Of a stretch of 31,929 nucleotides of DNA, positions 1 to 31,929 are shown one piece after another. The notes below the pieces were generated by a model. The model searched no databases. It saw nothing but the letters and a program-made list of their open reading frames with translations, and was not told the origin of the DNA. This stretch comes from a virus: the IMG/VR virus record IMGVR_UViG_3300029448_000212, positions 1-31,929 of that record, one strand, 5' to 3'. How positions within the stretch are numbered: the stretch's first letter is position 1; each line of letters opens with the position of its first letter. Made by a program: the position numbers and the translations under genes.

Positions 1-726
1 AGTTCCTAAGATAGCCATATCTGCTACAGCATCTGAAGTACCTAGTCTACCTATCTCTGTAGCTTTACCAGCTACAGTACCTATATCCGTTGCATCAGCA
101 GCAACAGCATTGATATTAGTTGCATTACCAGCAACAGCTGTAACATTAGATGCTATACCACTAACTGTAGTAATATCACTAGCAATACCAGCAACAGTTG
201 CTACATCTGTAATTGATTGACTAAACTCAATACCATTACCAGAACTATTAACTGTTAGTATCTTATTAGCTACTAATTCAGGAAATATTAATCCATATGC
301 AGTAGATGTTGTAGAAGCAGCTCTTGGTGATAAGTTAATATCAACACCTTGTTGTTGCATCATTGCAACAATTTTATCTAATTCTGTGTTTAAAGATTCA
401 ATAGGAAATATACCAGTACTAGCAAAATCAGTACTTCTAGCTATAGGTAAATTTCTAGTAATTGTATATTTATCATTAACAGTAGCACCACCACCTAATG
501 TTATTGATCCACCACCAGTTACACCAGCACCAGTTACAGAATACTGAGTAGCACTAGATGGACTAGCTGCTAATGTTAATGTAGTAATAGCACCATCAGA
601 TATAGCAGTTTTTTTAACTACTAAATCAGAATCAGCAAAAAATTCAAACGCAACTGTAAATGAAGTTTGCCCAGCTGTAGCTGTATATTGTACTCTAGGT
701 GAGGTGTCTGATATTGCTATTGCCAT
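1..726 (-). CDS. Tail fibre protein, N-terminal part (cut by window edge)
   Basis: My own translation gives an open frame of 242 codons from an ATG at 726 to base 1 with no stop, so the C-terminus lies outside the window. Residues 1 to about 130 resemble the T7 gp17-type fibre N-terminal domain: a beta-rich start, a Gly-rich turn, an ITRNLP segment and a 'LNTELDKIVAMMQQQ' helix. That domain anchors the fibre to the tail. Residues 178-227 form five 10-residue repeats of the pattern V-x-G-x-A-[ST]-[DN]-[IV]-x-x, as in trimeric fibre shafts. The ATG follows directly on the stop of the large internal virion gene. It probably carries or supports the receptor-binding tip. The anchor call is good; the tip is not visible. 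Confidence 0.85.
   Translation of the reverse strand, partial: MAIAISDTSPRVQYTATAGQTSFTVAFEFFADSDLVVKKTAISDGAITTLTLAASPSSATQYSVTGAGVTGGGSITLGGGATVNDKYTITRNLPIARSTDFASTGIFPIESLNTELDKIVAMMQQQGVDINLSPRAASTTSTAYGLIFPELVANKILTVNSSGNGIEFSQSITDVATVAGIASDITTVSGIASNVTAVAGNATNINAVAADATDIGTVAGKATEIGRLGTSDAVADMAILGT
46..195 (-). repeat. Five 10-residue (30-base) shaft repeats in the tail fibre gene
   Basis: The translated repeat units are VAGIASDITT, VSGIASNVTA, VAGNATNINA, VAADATDIGT and VAGKATEIGR. They are tandem, in frame and diverged at the DNA level. They probably form a trimeric beta or coiled-coil shaft. Confidence 0.8.
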
Positions 727-24847: not shown

Positions 24848-25121
24848 ACTGTTAAAAAAACTAGCAAGACAAACAGAAGATAATAAACTTTCTCCAATGG
24901 AGCGTAAGCAAAAGAAAAGAGAGTTTGTTACTAAACTTGGTTACAAGTATTTAGAATTAAATAAAGCTAAATGGTTTGACTATTTATATAATTCAAAAAA
25001 AGTAGCCGAAAATAAAATTGTGTATTACGAAGCCGAATTGTTATACGCAAAATATCGAGAGGACATACAGAAATGGAAAGACTACAAGTACAAAAAAAGG
25101 GAACGCAGTTTAAAGTCTTAA
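24831..25121 (+). CDS. Early hypothetical basic protein, 96 aa
   Basis: Highly charged and helical, rich in Lys, Glu and Tyr (ELLYAKYREDIQKWKDYKYK). A GGAAGGA ribosome binding site is close to the ATG at 24831. Its last 49 bases overlap the exonuclease gene in another frame. Function unknown. Confidence 0.65.
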   Translation: MKIISELLKKLARQTEDNKLSPMERKQKKREFVTKLGYKYLELNKAKWFDYLYNSKKVAENKIVYYEAELLYAKYREDIQKWKDYKYKKRERSLKS

Positions 25122-25705
25122 AAACTATTGGTGGTAGTGATGCTAACAACTTAGTTTTAGGAACTTTAGCTGAGTGGCGTAAAATAGTAGACGACAAAAT
25201 GAATGGTGAAACTGTTGATTTATCTCATGTTTTACCTGTTCAAATGGGAATTGTAACTGAAGAACTAAATCGTAAATGGTTTACTAAAATTACTGGATTG
25301 TCAGTTACAACACATGAAGATATTTTCTTCAATGATAAAAAACCTCATGCTCATGCAAGAGTAGATGGTACAATAAATAATGAGATAGTATTTGAAGCTA
25401 AACATACTAATCCATTCAAACCAATAGCAGATCAAGTAGCTAAATATTATGGTCAGCTACAACATTATATGATGGTGCTAAATTATGACTTAGCTTATTT
25501 ATCTATATTTGTTGGTAATATGAATCATCATATCTTTAAAATACAAAAAGATAAAAGTTATATAAATGATTTAGAAATTGTAGAAAAGTATTTATATGAT
25601 TGTATTGATTCTTGTTTTTCACCAGAGCCAAAGTTTTATGATTGGTTTCAAAACAGAAGAAATACTAAATTAAATATAAAGGAGATTACTGATGAAATAT
25701 CCTAA
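25073..25705 (+). CDS. YqaJ-type recombination exonuclease (lambda Exo-like), 210 aa
   Basis: The pattern GGSDA (20-24), Glu64 in 'MGIVTEELNRKWF', Asp98 in 'ARVDGT', 'VFEAKH' with Glu108 and Lys110, and 'YYGQLQHYM' (126-133) is that of the YqaJ/lambda exonuclease PD-(D/E)xK family. It would degrade one strand of a DNA end to prepare it for the annealing protein 0.3 kb downstream. The length is near the family size. The start lies inside the previous gene, with GAGG about 11 bases upstream. Confidence 0.88.
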   Translation: MERLQVQKKGTQFKVLKTIGGSDANNLVLGTLAEWRKIVDDKMNGETVDLSHVLPVQMGIVTEELNRKWFTKITGLSVTTHEDIFFNDKKPHAHARVDGTINNEIVFEAKHTNPFKPIADQVAKYYGQLQHYMMVLNYDLAYLSIFVGNMNHHIFKIQKDKSYINDLEIVEKYLYDCIDSCFSPEPKFYDWFQNRRNTKLNIKEITDEIS

Positions 25706-26006
25706 TAAAGCTGGCTATACTAATGACAGCACAAGTAAAGAAGCAGCAGAAAAAATTGGTTCTTATAAAAGAGCCAAGCTCTTACATAGAGTTGAAGATG
25801 TATTGTCTTACTATAAATTAGGTATGACAGCTGAAGAACTTGCAATATATTTAGAAGAAGATTTACTAAATATAAGACCAAGACTAACAGAATTATCAGA
25901 ACTAAATAAAGCAGTTGATTCTGGTAATAGAAGAAAAAATCATAATAACAGAAATGTTATTGTGTGGATTCATAAAGCAAATCAGGAAAGGATATGGTTT
26001 AAATGA
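25692..26006 (+). CDS. Winged-helix DNA-binding protein, 104 aa
   Basis: After a basic start, 'EDVLSYYKLGMTAEELAIYLEED' and 'IRPRLTELSEL' form the helix-turn-helix, followed by a wing-like 'VDSGNRRKNHNNRNVIVWIHK'. This is the plan of small phage wHTH proteins found in recombination/replication modules. It starts with AAAGGAG and overlaps the exonuclease by 14 bases. It may regulate the module or recruit replication; inference from position. Confidence 0.7.
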   Translation: MKYPNKAGYTNDSTSKEAAEKIGSYKRAKLLHRVEDVLSYYKLGMTAEELAIYLEEDLLNIRPRLTELSELNKAVDSGNRRKNHNNRNVIVWIHKANQERIWFK

Positions 26007-26467
26007 GTGAAGATAAGAAAACAAATAAGAATATATGGGATCAGTTAAAAGTTACAGATCCTAGATTTACAAAAGAAGTTACGTTTGGTCGTGGCTTTAC
26101 AAGCATAGATCCTATGTATCAAATAGGTAAAATGACAGACATCTTTGGTCCAGTTGGACATGGCTGGGGTTATGATGTAAAATATCATTACGCTGATGAT
26201 TATATATCAGCCGAAGTATCTGTGTGGACAAAACACCATGAAGGTACTTTTGGTCCTGTCTGTTCATTACTACCTTTAAAGAATACTAAAGGTAAGTTTG
26301 ATGACGAAGCTGGCAAGAAAGTAATGACAGATGCATTGACAAAAGCATTTAGTCATCTTGGTATGTCAGCAGATGTATTTTTAGGATTGTTCGAAAGTAG
26401 TAAATACGTTGAACAAGTCAAAAAGGATTTAGGTATTACTTCTGCTAAAATAGAAAAAATATCTTAA
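26003..26467 (+). CDS. Single-strand annealing protein (Rad52/Erf-like), 154 aa
   Basis: The segments 'TDPRFTKEVTFGRGFTSIDPMYQIGKMTDIFGPVGHGWGYDV' (in pieces) and 'KKVMTDALTKAFSHLGMSADVFLG' are the signature of a phage single-strand annealing family related to Rad52/Erf. It would coat and anneal single strands made by the YqaJ exonuclease. ATGA-type overlap with the wHTH gene. The length is short to normal. Confidence 0.8.
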   Translation: MSEDKKTNKNIWDQLKVTDPRFTKEVTFGRGFTSIDPMYQIGKMTDIFGPVGHGWGYDVKYHYADDYISAEVSVWTKHHEGTFGPVCSLLPLKNTKGKFDDEAGKKVMTDALTKAFSHLGMSADVFLGLFESSKYVEQVKKDLGITSAKIEKIS

Positions 26468-26913: not shown

Positions 26914-27336
26914 ATGACTATTAACAAAGCAATCTTACTTGGTAATCTTGGAGCAGATCCTGAGATAAAAGAAACTACAGGGGGATCTAAGTTTGCTAGA
27001 TTAAATCTAGCTACCAATGAAAGATTTAAAACTAAAGATGGAGAGCAACAAGAAAAGACACAATGGCATAATGTTGTTGTGTTTGATCCTATGGTTGCCG
27101 ACACAGTTGAGAAATACTGTAAGAAAGGTCAGACACTTTATTTAGAAGGTCAGATCGAAACTAGAAAGTATGAACAAGATGGTGTTACTAAGTACACTAC
27201 AGAGATTGTCATAGCTAAATTTAAAGGTATGCTTAAAATGATAGGCAGACCAGAAGGTTCAGCTAAAACTTCTAAACCAGTAGATACAAAAGTATTGAAA
27301 TCTTTAGAAGAAGATGTATCAGATATACCTTTTTAG
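26914..27336 (+). CDS. ssb: Single-stranded DNA-binding protein, 140 aa
   Basis: A standard SSB OB-fold: 'NKAILLGNLGADPEIK', 'GSKFARLNLATNER', 'WHNVVVFDPMVADTVEKY', 'KGQTLYLEGQIETRKYEQDG'. The C-terminus is an acidic tip ending in DIPF, which binds SSB partner proteins. GAAAGGA before the ATG. It protects single strands during replication and recombination with the exonuclease/annealase pair. It is the last early gene. Confidence 0.96.
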   Translation: MTINKAILLGNLGADPEIKETTGGSKFARLNLATNERFKTKDGEQQEKTQWHNVVVFDPMVADTVEKYCKKGQTLYLEGQIETRKYEQDGVTKYTTEIVIAKFKGMLKMIGRPEGSAKTSKPVDTKVLKSLEEDVSDIPF

Positions 27337-27394: not shown

Positions 27395-27796
27395 CTATTT
27401 TTTCCAGTTCTGAGCTATCTTTTCTCCACTTCTACCAGCAATATACCCACCGACACCGATTGTTAGTAAATTCCACATAGGATCAGGAATACTCAATTCA
27501 ACCGAAGCACCGAATATAATATTAGCAAAAGGAAGTAATATATAATTATTAAAAATTACTATAATGCAGATCCACATAAGAGCTGGTCGCCAAGTTGCAG
27601 TAAGCCAATGCTTACTACTTGCTTCAGCTTGTATAATGGAAGCTGCACTTTGTAATTCTTTACTATTGTTATCTAACATCTGTGATGTTATCTGTGATTT
27701 TAATTTTTCTGCTAAATCTTTATCTTCAACAGATTTATCCACAACACCTAAAGCTATTTTAGCAATAGGTCCAATAGCACCTAATAAATTTAACAT
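27395..27796 (-). CDS. Three-TM holin (GTA-type), 133 aa
   Basis: Charged N-terminal half (SVEDKDLAEKLKSQITSQML) and then hydrophobic segments 'PALMWICIIVIFNNYILLPF' and 'MWNLLTIGVGGYIAGRSGEK', with an amphipathic N-terminal helix. The pattern 'WLTATWRP' followed by TMs fits the holin family of alphaproteobacterial gene-transfer agents. It would open the inner membrane at the end of the cycle. Its ATG overlaps the upstream 35-residue gene as TAATG. Confidence 0.8.
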   Translation of the reverse strand: MLNLLGAIGPIAKIALGVVDKSVEDKDLAEKLKSQITSQMLDNNSKELQSAASIIQAEASSKHWLTATWRPALMWICIIVIFNNYILLPFANIIFGASVELSIPDPMWNLLTIGVGGYIAGRSGEKIAQNWKK

Positions 27797-27912: not shown

Positions 27913-28617
27913 TTATAAGTAAATATTATTATCCCAAGATCCATTACTATTAAGAACCATAGGAACAATGTAAGGTATACCTTCCGTAATAACTCCACAA
28001 GATAATACTGGCTTGGCTAAATTCACTTTCATATAAGCCATAGCTAGAGATTTCTTGTCAATAAGACATCCTGTACTCATACCCCAATTCAAATGAAAAT
28101 CATTGGCTACATACTTAATTTCTGACACAGTATGAAAATGTCCTTGTACACATGACATAGACGATTCTTTTACAGCTTTAGCAATATCTTTACTAAATTG
28201 ATGAGCAAACAAAATTCTACCTTTTTCAGTTTCAATAATATGTTTCTCTTTCCATACCCAACCCTTACCCACTTCTAGTATTTCATTGTAATCTTTAATA
28301 AAGAATTTAGACATACCCTTTGCCATTGCTCGTCTAAGTATCATTGATCCATGATTACTTTCTAATAAAGTTAATTTAGGAAATATTTTTTCTAATTGCT
28401 GACATAAAGAACGACCACCTAGTAACTCATCAGCTGGACTAGGTAAGTCTGGATTAATAACATGACTAACATTTATACTGTGCCAATCCATTTCATCTCC
28501 AATATGGACGACAGTATCTGGTTTATATTGTTTGTTTAATTTTTTAAGAAAAGGAAATAATGAATCATGATGATAAGGAAAATGACAATCTGATATAACT
28601 AAAATTCGTTTATTCAC
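27913..28617 (-). CDS. Calcineurin-like metallophosphoesterase, 234 aa
   Basis: Metal-binding motifs are complete: Asp10/His12 (SDCHFP), Asp41/Asp44 (GDEMDW), Asn88/His89 (SNHG), His139 (AHQ) and His160/His162 (QGHFHT). This is the two-metal phosphoesterase core, with full family length and the usual phage C-terminal 'GCGVI', 'VPMVLN'. Substrate unknown: nucleotide, cyclic nucleotide, DNA ends or a cell-wall phosphoester are all possible. It lies among lysis genes in the late block. Confidence 0.88.
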   Translation of the reverse strand: MNKRILVISDCHFPYHHDSLFPFLKKLNKQYKPDTVVHIGDEMDWHSINVSHVINPDLPSPADELLGGRSLCQQLEKIFPKLTLLESNHGSMILRRAMAKGMSKFFIKDYNEILEVGKGWVWKEKHIIETEKGRILFAHQFSKDIAKAVKESSMSCVQGHFHTVSEIKYVANDFHLNWGMSTGCLIDKKSLAMAYMKVNLAKPVLSCGVITEGIPYIVPMVLNSNGSWDNNIYL

Positions 28618-29348: not shown

Positions 29349-29672
29349 TTACTCCTTTGGATTATCTGCTTTAACTTGTGCAATTCTAGCTGACCAAGCA
29401 TCTATGTCTTTATAGATCTCATCTAGCTGATCGCCAATATCACCATAAGCTGTTCTTCTTGTAGCTCTGACAACATTGTTAGCTTCTTCAGTATTACCAG
29501 CAGTTTCGTATGAAGCTAGTTGCTCATCAGTTGGTTGAGCTAAACCTGAAACATTCCATTCTTTTATGTATGCTCCTGATCCATCATCTTGAAGAAGTAC
29601 ATCTTTTGTAAAGTCCACTGTTTTAGAGTTTGCCTGACAATACAAAGATATTTTAGTTGATAGTTGTGCCAT
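29349..29672 (-). CDS. Tail-fibre assembly chaperone-like protein (XkdW-type end), 107 aa
   Basis: The middle 'YIKEWNVSGLAQPTDEQL' and the C-terminal 'YGDIGDQLDEIYKDIDAW' are seen in small phage proteins after fibre genes. The 'YG.I.DQLD..Y' element is shared with tail assembly chaperones and XkdW-like proteins. It probably helps fibre folding or attachment. AAGGAAAAA precedes the ATG. It follows the fibre-associated genes. Confidence 0.7.
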   Translation of the reverse strand: MAQLSTKISLYCQANSKTVDFTKDVLLQDDGSGAYIKEWNVSGLAQPTDEQLASYETAGNTEEANNVVRATRRTAYGDIGDQLDEIYKDIDAWSARIAQVKADNPKE

Positions 29673-29690: not shown

Positions 29691-30293
29691 TTATTTTATT
29701 CCAAAAACTCTTACTGTAGCTTGTTCTATATTTCCAGAACCACAAACAAATTGAAATCCATTACATACTATTGAAGCATTATAAAAAGTTGATGTGTTAA
29801 TATCAAATACATAAGCAGTTGTTGTGTTATCTCTATTACTTCCATGTGATTGTATTATTTGATAATTAGATACACTAGGTTTATCTATAAAAATTCTTGC
29901 AAAGCCTGTTTCAGTAGCAGTTGAGTCAAGGTTTTCTAAAACTTTGTGAGATGTTCCTGTGTTTAAAGTATCGACACTTGAACTTGAACCATTATATCCA
30001 GCTCTTGTTGATACACTTCTATAACTACTTGATTTAAAAGAACTTCCAGCATCATCTGATATGCGTAATAGTAAGTCTTGACCAGCACTACTAATATTTA
30101 CATCACTAATTATAATCTCATAAGTATTATATGTACTATCAAAAACTAAACCATCTACACCATTTGCAAAATCTATTGATGATACTGCACTAGAAATAGT
30201 TTTTGTTTTTAATAATTGTATTGGAGATTCTACAGCACTAGGTAAAGCAGTAATTGATGTTAATGAGTTGTTGTTTAATCTAGTTATTGCCAT
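29691..30293 (-). CDS. Fibre-associated beta-rich protein, 200 aa
   Basis: After a Ser/Thr-rich start (MAITRLNNNSLTSITALPSA), the sequence is beta-rich with 'FDSTYNTYEIIISDVNISS' and 'LLLRISDDAGSSFKS', a pattern common in marine phage tail-associated proteins. It does not match the three proteins upstream over its core, so it is a different fold or a diverged relative. Probably a fibre tip or accessory adhesin. Confidence 0.6.
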   Translation of the reverse strand: MAITRLNNNSLTSITALPSAVESPIQLLKTKTISSAVSSIDFANGVDGLVFDSTYNTYEIIISDVNISSAGQDLLLRISDDAGSSFKSSSYRSVSTRAGYNGSSSSVDTLNTGTSHKVLENLDSTATETGFARIFIDKPSVSNYQIIQSHGSNRDNTTTAYVFDINTSTFYNASIVCNGFQFVCGSGNIEQATVRVFGIK

Positions 30294-30294
30294 G

Positions 30295-30834
30295 CTATGC
30301 TCCTATTATTTTATATCCACTAAAGAATGTAAATCCACTAGAACTACCTGTAACAGTTAAACCACTTCCAAAATCTGTGTATGCGATAACTTGAAAATAA
30401 TCATCAGCATCACTATCTACAATACAAGCAGTAAATAAACTTGGATCTCTATCAGAACTACTATTTAAGGCAACATGCTTAAATCTTGATGATACAACAC
30501 TTCCATTTTTTTTAATATCAAATTCAGTTGTTGCTTGATCGTGCATATCTTGGATATTCATTTGTGCAAATAAAAAATATTTACCACTCGTAGCTGGTGT
30601 AAACTTTCCTGTCGATGTATCAAATGTATTATCTGAATCAAATTTTTCTGTATCAAATGTGATAAGAGTAGAAGTTGTAGCACTAACAGATTGGTTTGAA
30701 CTTTTACTAACAAAGAAAGCTGGAGTATTCTGACCACCTATATTGTTAGTAGTAATACTTCCTGATCCATTAGATATTAATAGGTTGTTTCCACCTACAT
30801 CTTGTATTGTGTTTACTTTAATAATTGATGTCAT
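30295..30834 (-). CDS. C1q-like fibre-associated protein, paralogue 3, 179 aa
   Basis: N-terminal anchor 'IIKVNTIQDVGGNNLLISNG', then a C1q/TNF-like jelly-roll pattern: 'PAFFVSKSS', 'ITFDTEKFDSDNTFDTSTG' and 'KFTPATSGKYFLFAQMNI', closing with 'FTFFSGYKIIGA'. C1q-like domains form trimeric binding heads. It is related to the two genes upstream. Candidate adhesin. Confidence 0.65.
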   Translation of the reverse strand: MTSIIKVNTIQDVGGNNLLISNGSGSITTNNIGGQNTPAFFVSKSSNQSVSATTSTLITFDTEKFDSDNTFDTSTGKFTPATSGKYFLFAQMNIQDMHDQATTEFDIKKNGSVVSSRFKHVALNSSSDRDPSLFTACIVDSDADDYFQVIAYTDFGSGLTVTGSSSGFTFFSGYKIIGA

Positions 30835-30835
30835 G

Positions 30836-31354
30836 TTATGCTCCTATTATCCTAACTGCTGAAAAGTATGATTGTTCTGTTCCAGCATATATTGTTTTAG
30901 AGCCACCAGTTTCTTGATATCCTTTTGCTTCGATATAATCTGAAGAACCATTAAAATCTATTAATGATGTGGTAATTGGATTTGATGTAGAACTTGATAA
31001 CACTATATTAGCTCTAGAATGTTCAGCTCCATTTTTAAAAATACTACAAATAAAAGTTCCTGTACTTGAGTTTGCGTTTAAAGCATAAGAAGCTATAACC
31101 AAATATTTACCAGCTACATTAGGAGTAAATTTATAGGTACTAGTGTTATAACAACTATCTGTATCGTAAGTTTCTGTGTTAAAATTAATTGTGGTCATTG
31201 TTGTATTTGCTATTGCTTGAGTTGTACTCATAGTAGCTCTAAAAGCTGGAGTATTAGTAATAGCACCACCACTAGAGATAACACCACTACCATTACTGGT
31301 TAGTAGTTCGTTACCCCCTAAGTCAGTTATTTGATTTGTTTTTAATATGCTCAT
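30836..31354 (-). CDS. C1q-like fibre-associated protein, paralogue 2, 172 aa
   Basis: Shares the N-terminal pattern with its neighbour (ILKTNQITDLGGNELLTSNG) and the same core landmarks: 'PAFRATMS', 'INFNTETYDTDSCYNTSTY', 'KFTPNVAGKYLVIASYA' and the end 'YFSAVRIIGA'. Between these it differs strongly from the other two copies, as expected for surface-exposed binding loops. Candidate trimeric adhesin. Confidence 0.65.
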   Translation of the reverse strand: MSILKTNQITDLGGNELLTSNGSGVISSGGAITNTPAFRATMSTTQAIANTTMTTINFNTETYDTDSCYNTSTYKFTPNVAGKYLVIASYALNANSSTGTFICSIFKNGAEHSRANIVLSSSTSNPITTSLIDFNGSSDYIEAKGYQETGGSKTIYAGTEQSYFSAVRIIGA

Positions 31355-31896
31355 GTTCCTATCCTATATCCAATAAAAGAACTTCTTTCATCATCAGCAC
31401 GAAATGAAACACCACTACCGCCTTCTAAATAACCAAAAAGCTGAACATAATCTCCAACTGCTAAATTCATTGTAGCTGATATTTGAATTGTTCCATATAA
31501 ATTACTAGTTCTTCCATTTTGTTCGTAGTAATATTCTTTTGATCCATTTTTAAAAAGAAGTAAGTGAACTGCTACAGCGGCAGAACTTGTGTAATTATCT
31601 GTAGCCATGCCATGAAAAAAATATTTTCCAGCTTTGCCACTGGGAACTGTAAAACGATAGTTGCTTGTATCATAAGCTGATTCTGTATCGTAAACTTCAG
31701 TATTATAAGGCATTACAGTATTAGTCGCATTTGACATTGTAATAGTGCTACTAGGATAAGCATGAAAAGCTGGATACATAAAATTACTTTGCACATCACC
31801 ACTACCTAAAGCTATGGTTGATGCGTTGCTAGATCCTAATGTTAGTGTACTCGTTCCTGAAACTGAGTCTATTGTGTTGGCTTCTATTTTACTCAT
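31351..31896 (-). CDS. C1q-like fibre-associated protein, paralogue 1, 181 aa
   Basis: Begins MSKIEANTIDSVSGTSTLTL, a diverged form of the shared anchor, then 'PAFHAYPSS', 'MPYNTEVYDTESAYDTSNY', 'RFTVPSGKAGKYFFHGMA' and ends 'SSFIGYRIGT'. Its start overlaps the stop of the fibre-like gene at the edge, and its stop overlaps paralogue 2 (ATGA). Candidate trimeric adhesin. Confidence 0.65.
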   Translation of the reverse strand: MSKIEANTIDSVSGTSTLTLGSSNASTIALGSGDVQSNFMYPAFHAYPSSTITMSNATNTVMPYNTEVYDTESAYDTSNYRFTVPSGKAGKYFFHGMATDNYTSSAAVAVHLLLFKNGSKEYYYEQNGRTSNLYGTIQISATMNLAVGDYVQLFGYLEGGSGVSFRADDERSSFIGYRIGT

Positions 31897-31929
31897 AATA
31901 CTACAAATGTACTCCCTGAAGGTATAGTC
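31893..31929 (-). CDS. C-terminal end of a fibre-like gene (cut by window edge)
   Basis: Only the last 11 codons are inside: TIPSGSTFVVL followed by TGA (31895-31893), which overlaps the next ATG. 'TIPSG.T' endings are common in phage fibre proteins. It may be the end of the fibre that starts at 726. Confidence 0.5.
   Translation of the reverse strand, partial: TIPSGSTFVVL

Follow-up and report, generated by a model that had tools for sequence, protein, structure and literature searches.

C1q genes of pelagiphages have been described near the fibre gene, with the C1q head under-recruiting more strongly than its own N-terminus (Mizuno et al. 2014, PMC3909814). The parts of that paper considered here deal with single genes, read coverage and metaviromic islands, in contrast to the ordered array presented in the following; its slot-specific anchors, cross-slot and cross-fold exchange and ribosome-site linkers do not appear in those parts. 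HTVC010P-type pelagiphages (Polarivirus skadi) carry a hypervariable stretch, itself conserved, near their tail fibre genes, which encodes a lectin-domain protein and was read as a hotspot of the arms race with the host (PMC10504331). It comprises two genes, is described by coverage only and comes without a modular anchor/head structure.

A related multi-gene system is found in Ackermannviridae, where a branched tailspike complex is encoded by four receptor-binding genes with gene-specific conserved N-termini and variable C-termini, and where the conserved 5' ends are sites of homologous recombination among the four tailspike genes (PMC11414711). The array resembles this system: it has several putative receptor-binding protein (RBP) genes, whose conserved N-termini are gene-specific and whose conserved 5' ends are sites of exchange. 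The Ackermannviridae proteins are, however, large tailspikes with enzymatic activity, contain XD and TD domains and have a known assembly (PMC11414711), while the array combines small heads of C1q or other folds with anchors of 20-40 residues, belongs to SAR11-type podoviruses and has heads that move between slots. For Klebsiella phages, a short peptide that is conserved at the N-terminus (29 residues in KP32 viruses) was proposed to dock a second RBP, along with horizontal transfer of the specificity domain (Latka et al. 2019, PMC6872550). The simple systems among them have one or two such RBPs, with depolymerase domains and T4 gp10-like docking domains (PMC6872550); unlike these, neither Pfam nor PHROGs reports an XD (T4 gp10-like) docking domain for any of slots 1-4. 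The C1q/TNF fold itself also occurs in the predicted receptor-binding protein gp30 of tectivirus Toil (PMC5773508) and in a phage virion protein, i.e., the central spike knob of phi812 (PDB 9eul), but both are single domains in otherwise unrelated proteins and not arrays of exchangeable heads.

That is, C1q heads in pelagiphages and tailspike exchange at conserved gene starts in Ackermannviridae are already known. An array that combines several ordered slots, slot-specific anchors and ribosome-site linkers with head exchange across slots and folds was not found described in the open-access papers searched, and such an array appears to be new.

Results

Layout of the array

The window, i.e., the whole stretch of DNA analysed, is an IMG/VR record of 31,929 bases with the array at 29691-31896. 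On the minus strand, this interval holds four abutting genes of 200, 179, 172 and 181 aa (by ascending coordinate), which are transcribed in the order slot 1, slot 2, slot 3, slot 4 and are followed by an XkdW-like gene. The features of the tail module are as follows.

1..726, minus strand: N-terminal part of the tail fibre (phrog_1640 'tail protein' 2.1e-23; phrog_6518 'tail fiber protein' 5.1e-16)
29349..29672, minus strand: XkdW-like gene closing the array (Pfam XkdW 7e-12; phrog_9114)
29691..30293, minus strand: slot 4, 200 aa; anchor residues 1 to ~22 (30228-30293), then a non-C1q beta-sandwich head
30295..30306, minus strand: slot 3/slot 4 junction; last codons IGA-stop contain the slot 4 ribosome site, ATG one base on
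30295..30834, minus strand: slot 3, 179 aa; anchor residues 1 to ~38 (30721-30834), then a C1q head
30836..30847, minus strand: slot 2/slot 3 junction; last codons IGA-stop (ATAGGAGCATAA) contain the slot 3 ribosome site, ATG one base on
30836..31354, minus strand: slot 2, 172 aa; anchor residues 1 to ~36 (31247-31354), then a C1q head
31351..31896, minus strand: slot 1, 181 aa; anchor residues 1 to ~41 (31774-31896), then a C1q head
31893..31929, minus strand: 3' end of a 150-aa tail-fibre-like gene (..TIPSGSTFVVL-stop) that precedes slot 1

An earlier reading of the letters alone (the sequence-only reading) had described three adjacent genes after the tail fibre. The three C1q genes are indeed adjacent, but the same interval holds a fourth gene (29691-30293), and the array does not directly follow the fibre, since the contig is cut there and the separate 150-aa gene precedes slot 1. 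The stop of the latter overlaps the slot 1 start (ATGA), and positions 31893-31929 are identical or near-identical to the ends of the 150-aa genes in loci L012, L120, L123 and L147. The 150-aa gene belongs to phrog_18673 'tail fiber protein' (E 1.2e-41), while its match to a baseplate-wedge family is weak.

Both contig ends (1 and 31929) lie inside the tail module. The fibre at 1..726 is interrupted by the contig end and is found upstream of the array in relatives; continuity of the fibre with slot 1 across the contig ends was ruled out because 31893-31929 is the 3' end of another gene. Longer relatives show the order fibre, MANTFK gene, further genes, 150-aa gene, slots 1-4, XkdW. The stretch missing from the contig should thus comprise a MANTFK-type gene, the remaining part of the fibre and the bulk of the 150-aa gene, and possibly another adhesin.

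Fold of the heads

Pfam C1q (PF00386) matches slot 1 (E 1.9e-5), slot 2 (1.1e-4) and slot 3 (6.9e-7), where slots 1 and 3 score above the curated cut-off and slot 2 just under it (22.8 vs 23.7 bits). A profile built from 50 relatives retrieves adiponectin (6e-13) and complement C1q (1e-8) from the PDB, so that the resemblance is not due to chance. Single-chain models were computed for the slot 3 and slot 4 proteins. Residues 36-179 of the slot 3 model (pLDDT 87) align to a C1q domain with Z 18.8 and rmsd 2.1 over 131 residues, and equally well to the phi812 central spike knob (Z 18.5, rmsd 2.1). Based on these matches, slots 1-3 are assigned to the C1q/TNF type, and slot 3 is predicted to adopt the jelly-roll fold of C1q domains. 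The C1q-like core formerly proposed for three genes is thereby borne out, as are its landmarks, i.e., slots 1-3 have NTPAF/PAF, FxTExxDxxxxxxTxxxxFT, GKY and a closing GYxIxG-type strand in common.

For slot 4, structure prediction gives a different picture. The protein is without a Pfam C1q match, belongs to phrog_14820 (E 1.5e-19) and is modelled (pLDDT 74) as a beta-sandwich whose best neighbours, at Z 7-8, are galectin- and levanase-like; scores of this size can reflect no more than a common arrangement. A C1q assignment of this head is therefore unsupported. Fold matches to giant-virus, animal and Bacillus proteins were taken as evidence of fold only, not of function or origin. Outside its C1q genes, HTVC019P carries three tandem genes of the head family of the window's slot 4 (L218, 6852-8687), which are 22-28% identical to the window's.

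Slot-specific anchors in a fixed order

Each slot has its own N-terminal anchor of about 21-41 residues. Among the IMG/VR loci, the anchors read MSKIExxxI (slot 1), MSILKTNQITDL (slot 2), MTSIIKVNTIQD (slot 3) and MAITRLNNNS (slot 4), and the window's slot 2 anchor MSILKTNQITDLGGNELLTSNGSGVISSGGAITNTP recurs word for word in many loci. We performed two anchor scans with degenerate DNA patterns that are blind to the heads. They yielded 24 stretches with the slot 2 anchor and 20 with the slot 3 anchor, with one match each, and 19/20 contigs with the slot 3 anchor also contain that of slot 2. For the window's array type, the anchor result holds for slots 2-4 when considering only residues outside the search pattern. 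Slot 1 anchors come in several divergent alleles and slot 2 anchors in two; the anchors of slots 2 and 3 resemble each other.

The order of slots 1 to 4 is kept in 23/23 distinct IMG/VR arrays showing at least two slots, where loci with a common gene were merged; the arrays remain related by ancestry and their pairs are not independent. The sequence-only reading had placed variable heads on one common mount with a shared N-terminal anchor. While C1q-like variable heads on conserved N-terminal mounts within the tail module are indeed found, there is no common mount: each slot has its own anchor, which occurs in one copy per fetched stretch.

No order violations are seen in two further array types, one with five and one with four slots, which follow the same rule with other anchors. 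Their anchors are 64-95% and their heads 19-45% identical, with overlapping loci left unmerged and with anchor identity inflated over residues 1-12, since those residues served to find the genes. Such arrays lie upstream of an XkdW-like gene in L167, L165, L183, L023 and L036. The five-slot type has the anchors MSTLEV, MGTIFVDNLEPQ, MSKILVDTIDTR, MSTLKVSTISPL and MAVTTIPTAGI, the four-slot type MATLFVDKIDPQ, MGTIKTTNIEPI, MASIIKANQLQD and MALSKIDxxN. The ordered-array principle thus seems general in this phage group.

The stretch SGTSTLTLGSSNASTIALGSGDVQSN follows two different tags formed by the first 12 residues, namely those of the window's slot 1 (31780-31896) and of the third genes of the five-slot type (anchor MSKILVDTIDTR). 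Its presence behind two tags suggests that the anchor may itself be bipartite, i.e., a short address plus a spacer. Finally, the cultured phage HTVC115P has a comparable array, in which a 150-aa-type gene is followed by three anchors, the first of slot 1 type, the second of another kind and the third of slot 3 type, and then by a glycine-rich head, which makes the model testable.

Linkers and silent sites

We refer to the ribosome site, the ATG and the anchor together as the linker. Linkers span roughly 60-140 bases and are conserved across phages including their silent sites. Nucleotide identity is high from about 12-24 bases 5' of the ATG to about +60 (slot 4) or +110-120 (slots 2 and 3) and mostly drops to 0.3-0.6 outside these limits, which results in a sharp conservation edge around the anchors. 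The conserved block starts within the last codons of the preceding gene, where ATA-GGA-GCA-TAR-C-ATG encodes the IGA-stop and at the same time provides the next ribosome site. Such an embedded site for the next gene is present in 20/20 slot 2 genes and in the last 15 bases of 29/33 slot 3 genes vs 3/30 for slot 4; behind slot 4 genes, it is commonly an 18-base spacer that contains the next ribosome site. The closing motif is therefore in part a translation signal; that is, the GYxIxG-type strand named in the sequence-only reading is common to slots 1-3, but its 'IGA' end is partly a DNA signal.

Silent-site agreement was measured as third-base agreement in same-codon four-fold families, with some near-duplicate contigs remaining in the set. 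Anchors reach.91-.92 (slots 2 and 3),.83 (slot 4) and.76 (slot 1), the backbone.72 (both XkdW gene and fibre N-terminus), and heads.53-.61 vs a chance level of.44, i.e., they are near saturation. These values indicate that the heads are old alleles brought together rather than recent copies and that the anchors are homogenised, or constrained, beyond the level of the backbone. Anchor conservation could partly be due to nucleotide-level constraint rather than exchange. In residues 13-21 of the slot 4 anchor, 90% of the residues are identical with 78% identical four-fold sites.

Head exchange within and across slots

Heads between the conserved linkers are mostly unrelated across phages. The clearest comparison is that of the window with L007, which is 97.1% identical to it over 5,376 bases of backbone up to the slot 4 stop. 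All four heads differ (20-34% identical), while the anchors are 100% (slot 3), 91% (slot 4), 65% (slot 2) and 33% (slot 1) identical.

Heads are also found in other slots. Between slot 1 of L091 and slot 2 of L116, the heads are 94% identical on anchors that are 27% alike; between slot 1 of L118 and slot 3 of L005, they are 91% identical on anchors 13% alike. DNA homology extends to the gene end in both pairs; it begins 10-20 residues before the head border in the former and at residues 42 and 36, i.e., at the NTP(A/S)F border, in the latter. Furthermore, L081 has the head of the window's slot 4 on a different anchor, MALSKIKPASID. Exchange is not confined to one fold: glycine-rich non-C1q heads occur in slot 1 of L129 and at the slot 4 position of HTVC115P, heads of an ADQWR-type family occupy slots 3 and 4, and those of a GKxLQV-type family are seen mostly in slot 4.

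On a tree of the heads, the slot labels need 36 changes vs 39.6 when shuffled (15/200 shuffles are as low), i.e., they are nearly randomly distributed; this is a quick tree with long branches, of which the supported ones alone force several slot changes. The window's three C1q heads are not each other's nearest relatives. Duplication and divergence, which had been put forward as the source of the variation, is not supported by these observations or by the near-saturated silent sites of the heads. Conserved linkers, unrelated heads, heads shared across slots and the L007 comparison together argue for cassette exchange from an old pool, not recent duplication, as the origin of head variation.

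Host, recombination genes and expression

Among public phages, the connector protein is nearest to that of Pelagibacter phage EXVC031P (56%), and the XkdW-like gene is found in public phage records of Pelagibacter phages only. Given these relatives, the host is probably SAR11. One profile scan of GTDB genomes gave no confirmed cellular copies and thus no prophage link to a host.

Two genes on the plus strand are of interest with regard to exchange.

25073..25705, plus strand: YqaJ/RecE-like exonuclease (PF09588 7.1e-8; phrog_434 1.5e-23), candidate driver of short-homology exchange
26914..27336, plus strand: single-strand DNA binding protein, SSB (PF00436 5.2e-31; phrog_44), same candidate recombination system

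Between them, 26003-26467 encodes a short protein of the 'exonuclease' family phrog_7838 (6.3e-36), which by its position may be a single-strand annealing protein. The RecE-like exonuclease, the second exonuclease-family protein and the SSB would fit recombination at short homologies. A metallophosphoesterase-like gene (27913-28617, PF00149) lies beside a 3-TM holin (27395-27796, GTA_holin_3TM), both between the array and the replication genes.

The record, which is incomplete, has no PF00078 match (reverse transcriptase), unlike targets of diversity-generating retroelements, and no PF00239 match (serine invertase), unlike invertible tail-fibre cassettes of Mu/P1 type. Inverted repeats within the array are weak (70-89% over 18-30 bases) and none is convincing. 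Internal promoters were considered and dismissed, as the 13 sites found show no excess over the 13.6 expected from shuffles. The sequence-only reading had left open whether the heads provide a mixed or a switchable host range. Given the missing reverse transcriptase and invertase matches, promoter-like sites at chance level and weak inverted repeats, and since each stop and the next start are a few bases apart with ribosome sites inside the preceding gene, joint expression is more likely than switching.

Discussion

We consider it probable that the four slots form a translationally coupled array and that its products are small receptor-binding heads attached to the virion of a SAR11-type podovirus. 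The comparisons show that each gene consists of a slot-specific anchor and an exchangeable beta-rich head and that whole heads are exchanged as cassettes, both within one slot and between slots. Slots 1-4 are tail-module genes that combine a conserved mount at the N-terminus with a variable head at the distal end, as in phage receptor-binding proteins. Their products are most likely co-expressed, virion-mounted putative receptor-binding heads, of which the variable head is probably the part that grips the host cell. In this arrangement, the anchor would give each head a docking site of its own, either on the tail or on the 150-aa adapter-like protein, with C1q heads presumably docked as trimers. 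All four heads would be made together, so that one virion would show four specificities, and would bind surface structures of SAR11 cells, while the phage's RecE-like exonuclease and SSB may aid exchange at the linkers.

Recent tandem duplication of one C1q gene in the lineage, with heads diverging in place under host pressure, could explain that slots 1-3 are related by fold and weak sequence similarity and that slot 2 and slot 3 anchors are alike, and the cultured HTVC019P does have three tandem genes of one other head family. However, the window's heads are not mutual nearest relatives, silent sites are near saturation in heads but not in anchors, near-identical heads occur in different slots, and L007 shows wholesale head replacement on a 97% identical backbone. 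Recent duplication is thus rejected by head tree, silent sites and cross-slot identity and seems very unlikely to us; with slots 1-3 related and the slot 2 and 3 anchors alike, an ancient duplication probably founded the array. It is still less credible, indeed extremely improbable, that a diversity-generating retroelement or an invertible cassette switches heads within one phage line. A sharp boundary between constant N-terminus and variable C-terminus would also be expected from such systems, but the (incomplete) record lacks a reverse transcriptase or serine invertase match, the inverted repeats are as weak as given above, and the differences between heads extend over the full length and include the fold, instead of being confined to scattered adenine-linked sites.

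Two further alternatives accept the modular structure or the conserved anchors and question their role. The exchanged modules might be structural decorations that do not bind the host, e.g., capsid or tail ornaments that make virions more stable or adhere to particles or other phages. Some PHROG relatives are indeed listed under 'head and packaging' (phrog_13989), and viral proteins of many kinds contain C1q folds. We regard this as unlikely, since the genes are placed among fibre and tail-fibre-like genes, the heads are of several unrelated folds as expected for adhesins, and the under-recruitment of C1q heads (PMC3909814) fits host recognition. Alternatively, anchor conservation might mainly reflect a nucleotide signal (ribosome, RNA or recombination sites), with an N-terminal peptide that has no docking role. 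The silent sites of the slot 2 and 3 anchors (.91-.92 vs.72 for the backbone) and the ribosome sites built into the junctions are in line with this, yet anchor residues are conserved where codons differ (slot 4, residues 13-21), anchors are slot-specific although all slots need a ribosome site equally, and in the model the anchor lies outside the C1q domain, such that a signal-only role appears quite unlikely.

Beyond the coupled array of receptor-binding heads, we tentatively propose a 'slot code', which we hold to be possible rather than probable. Here, the anchor of about 20-40 residues would be the address of one fixed tail site, into which many heads could be plugged by linker recombination, i.e., C1q, galectin-like sandwich and glycine-rich heads as well as two or more uncharacterised families.

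In the ocean, SAR11 bacteria rank among the most abundant cells, and to our knowledge, host choice by their phages is largely unknown. If the slot code is true, a single virion would carry at least four interchangeable specificities drawn from a shared oceanic pool. Anchors would become a readable code that tells which genes are receptor-binding heads and which slot they occupy. Heads could then be collected from metagenomes and tested singly, and their exchange could be traced in populations. It would also explain the under-recruitment observed in metaviromes, as heads would be replaced whole and not mutated in place.
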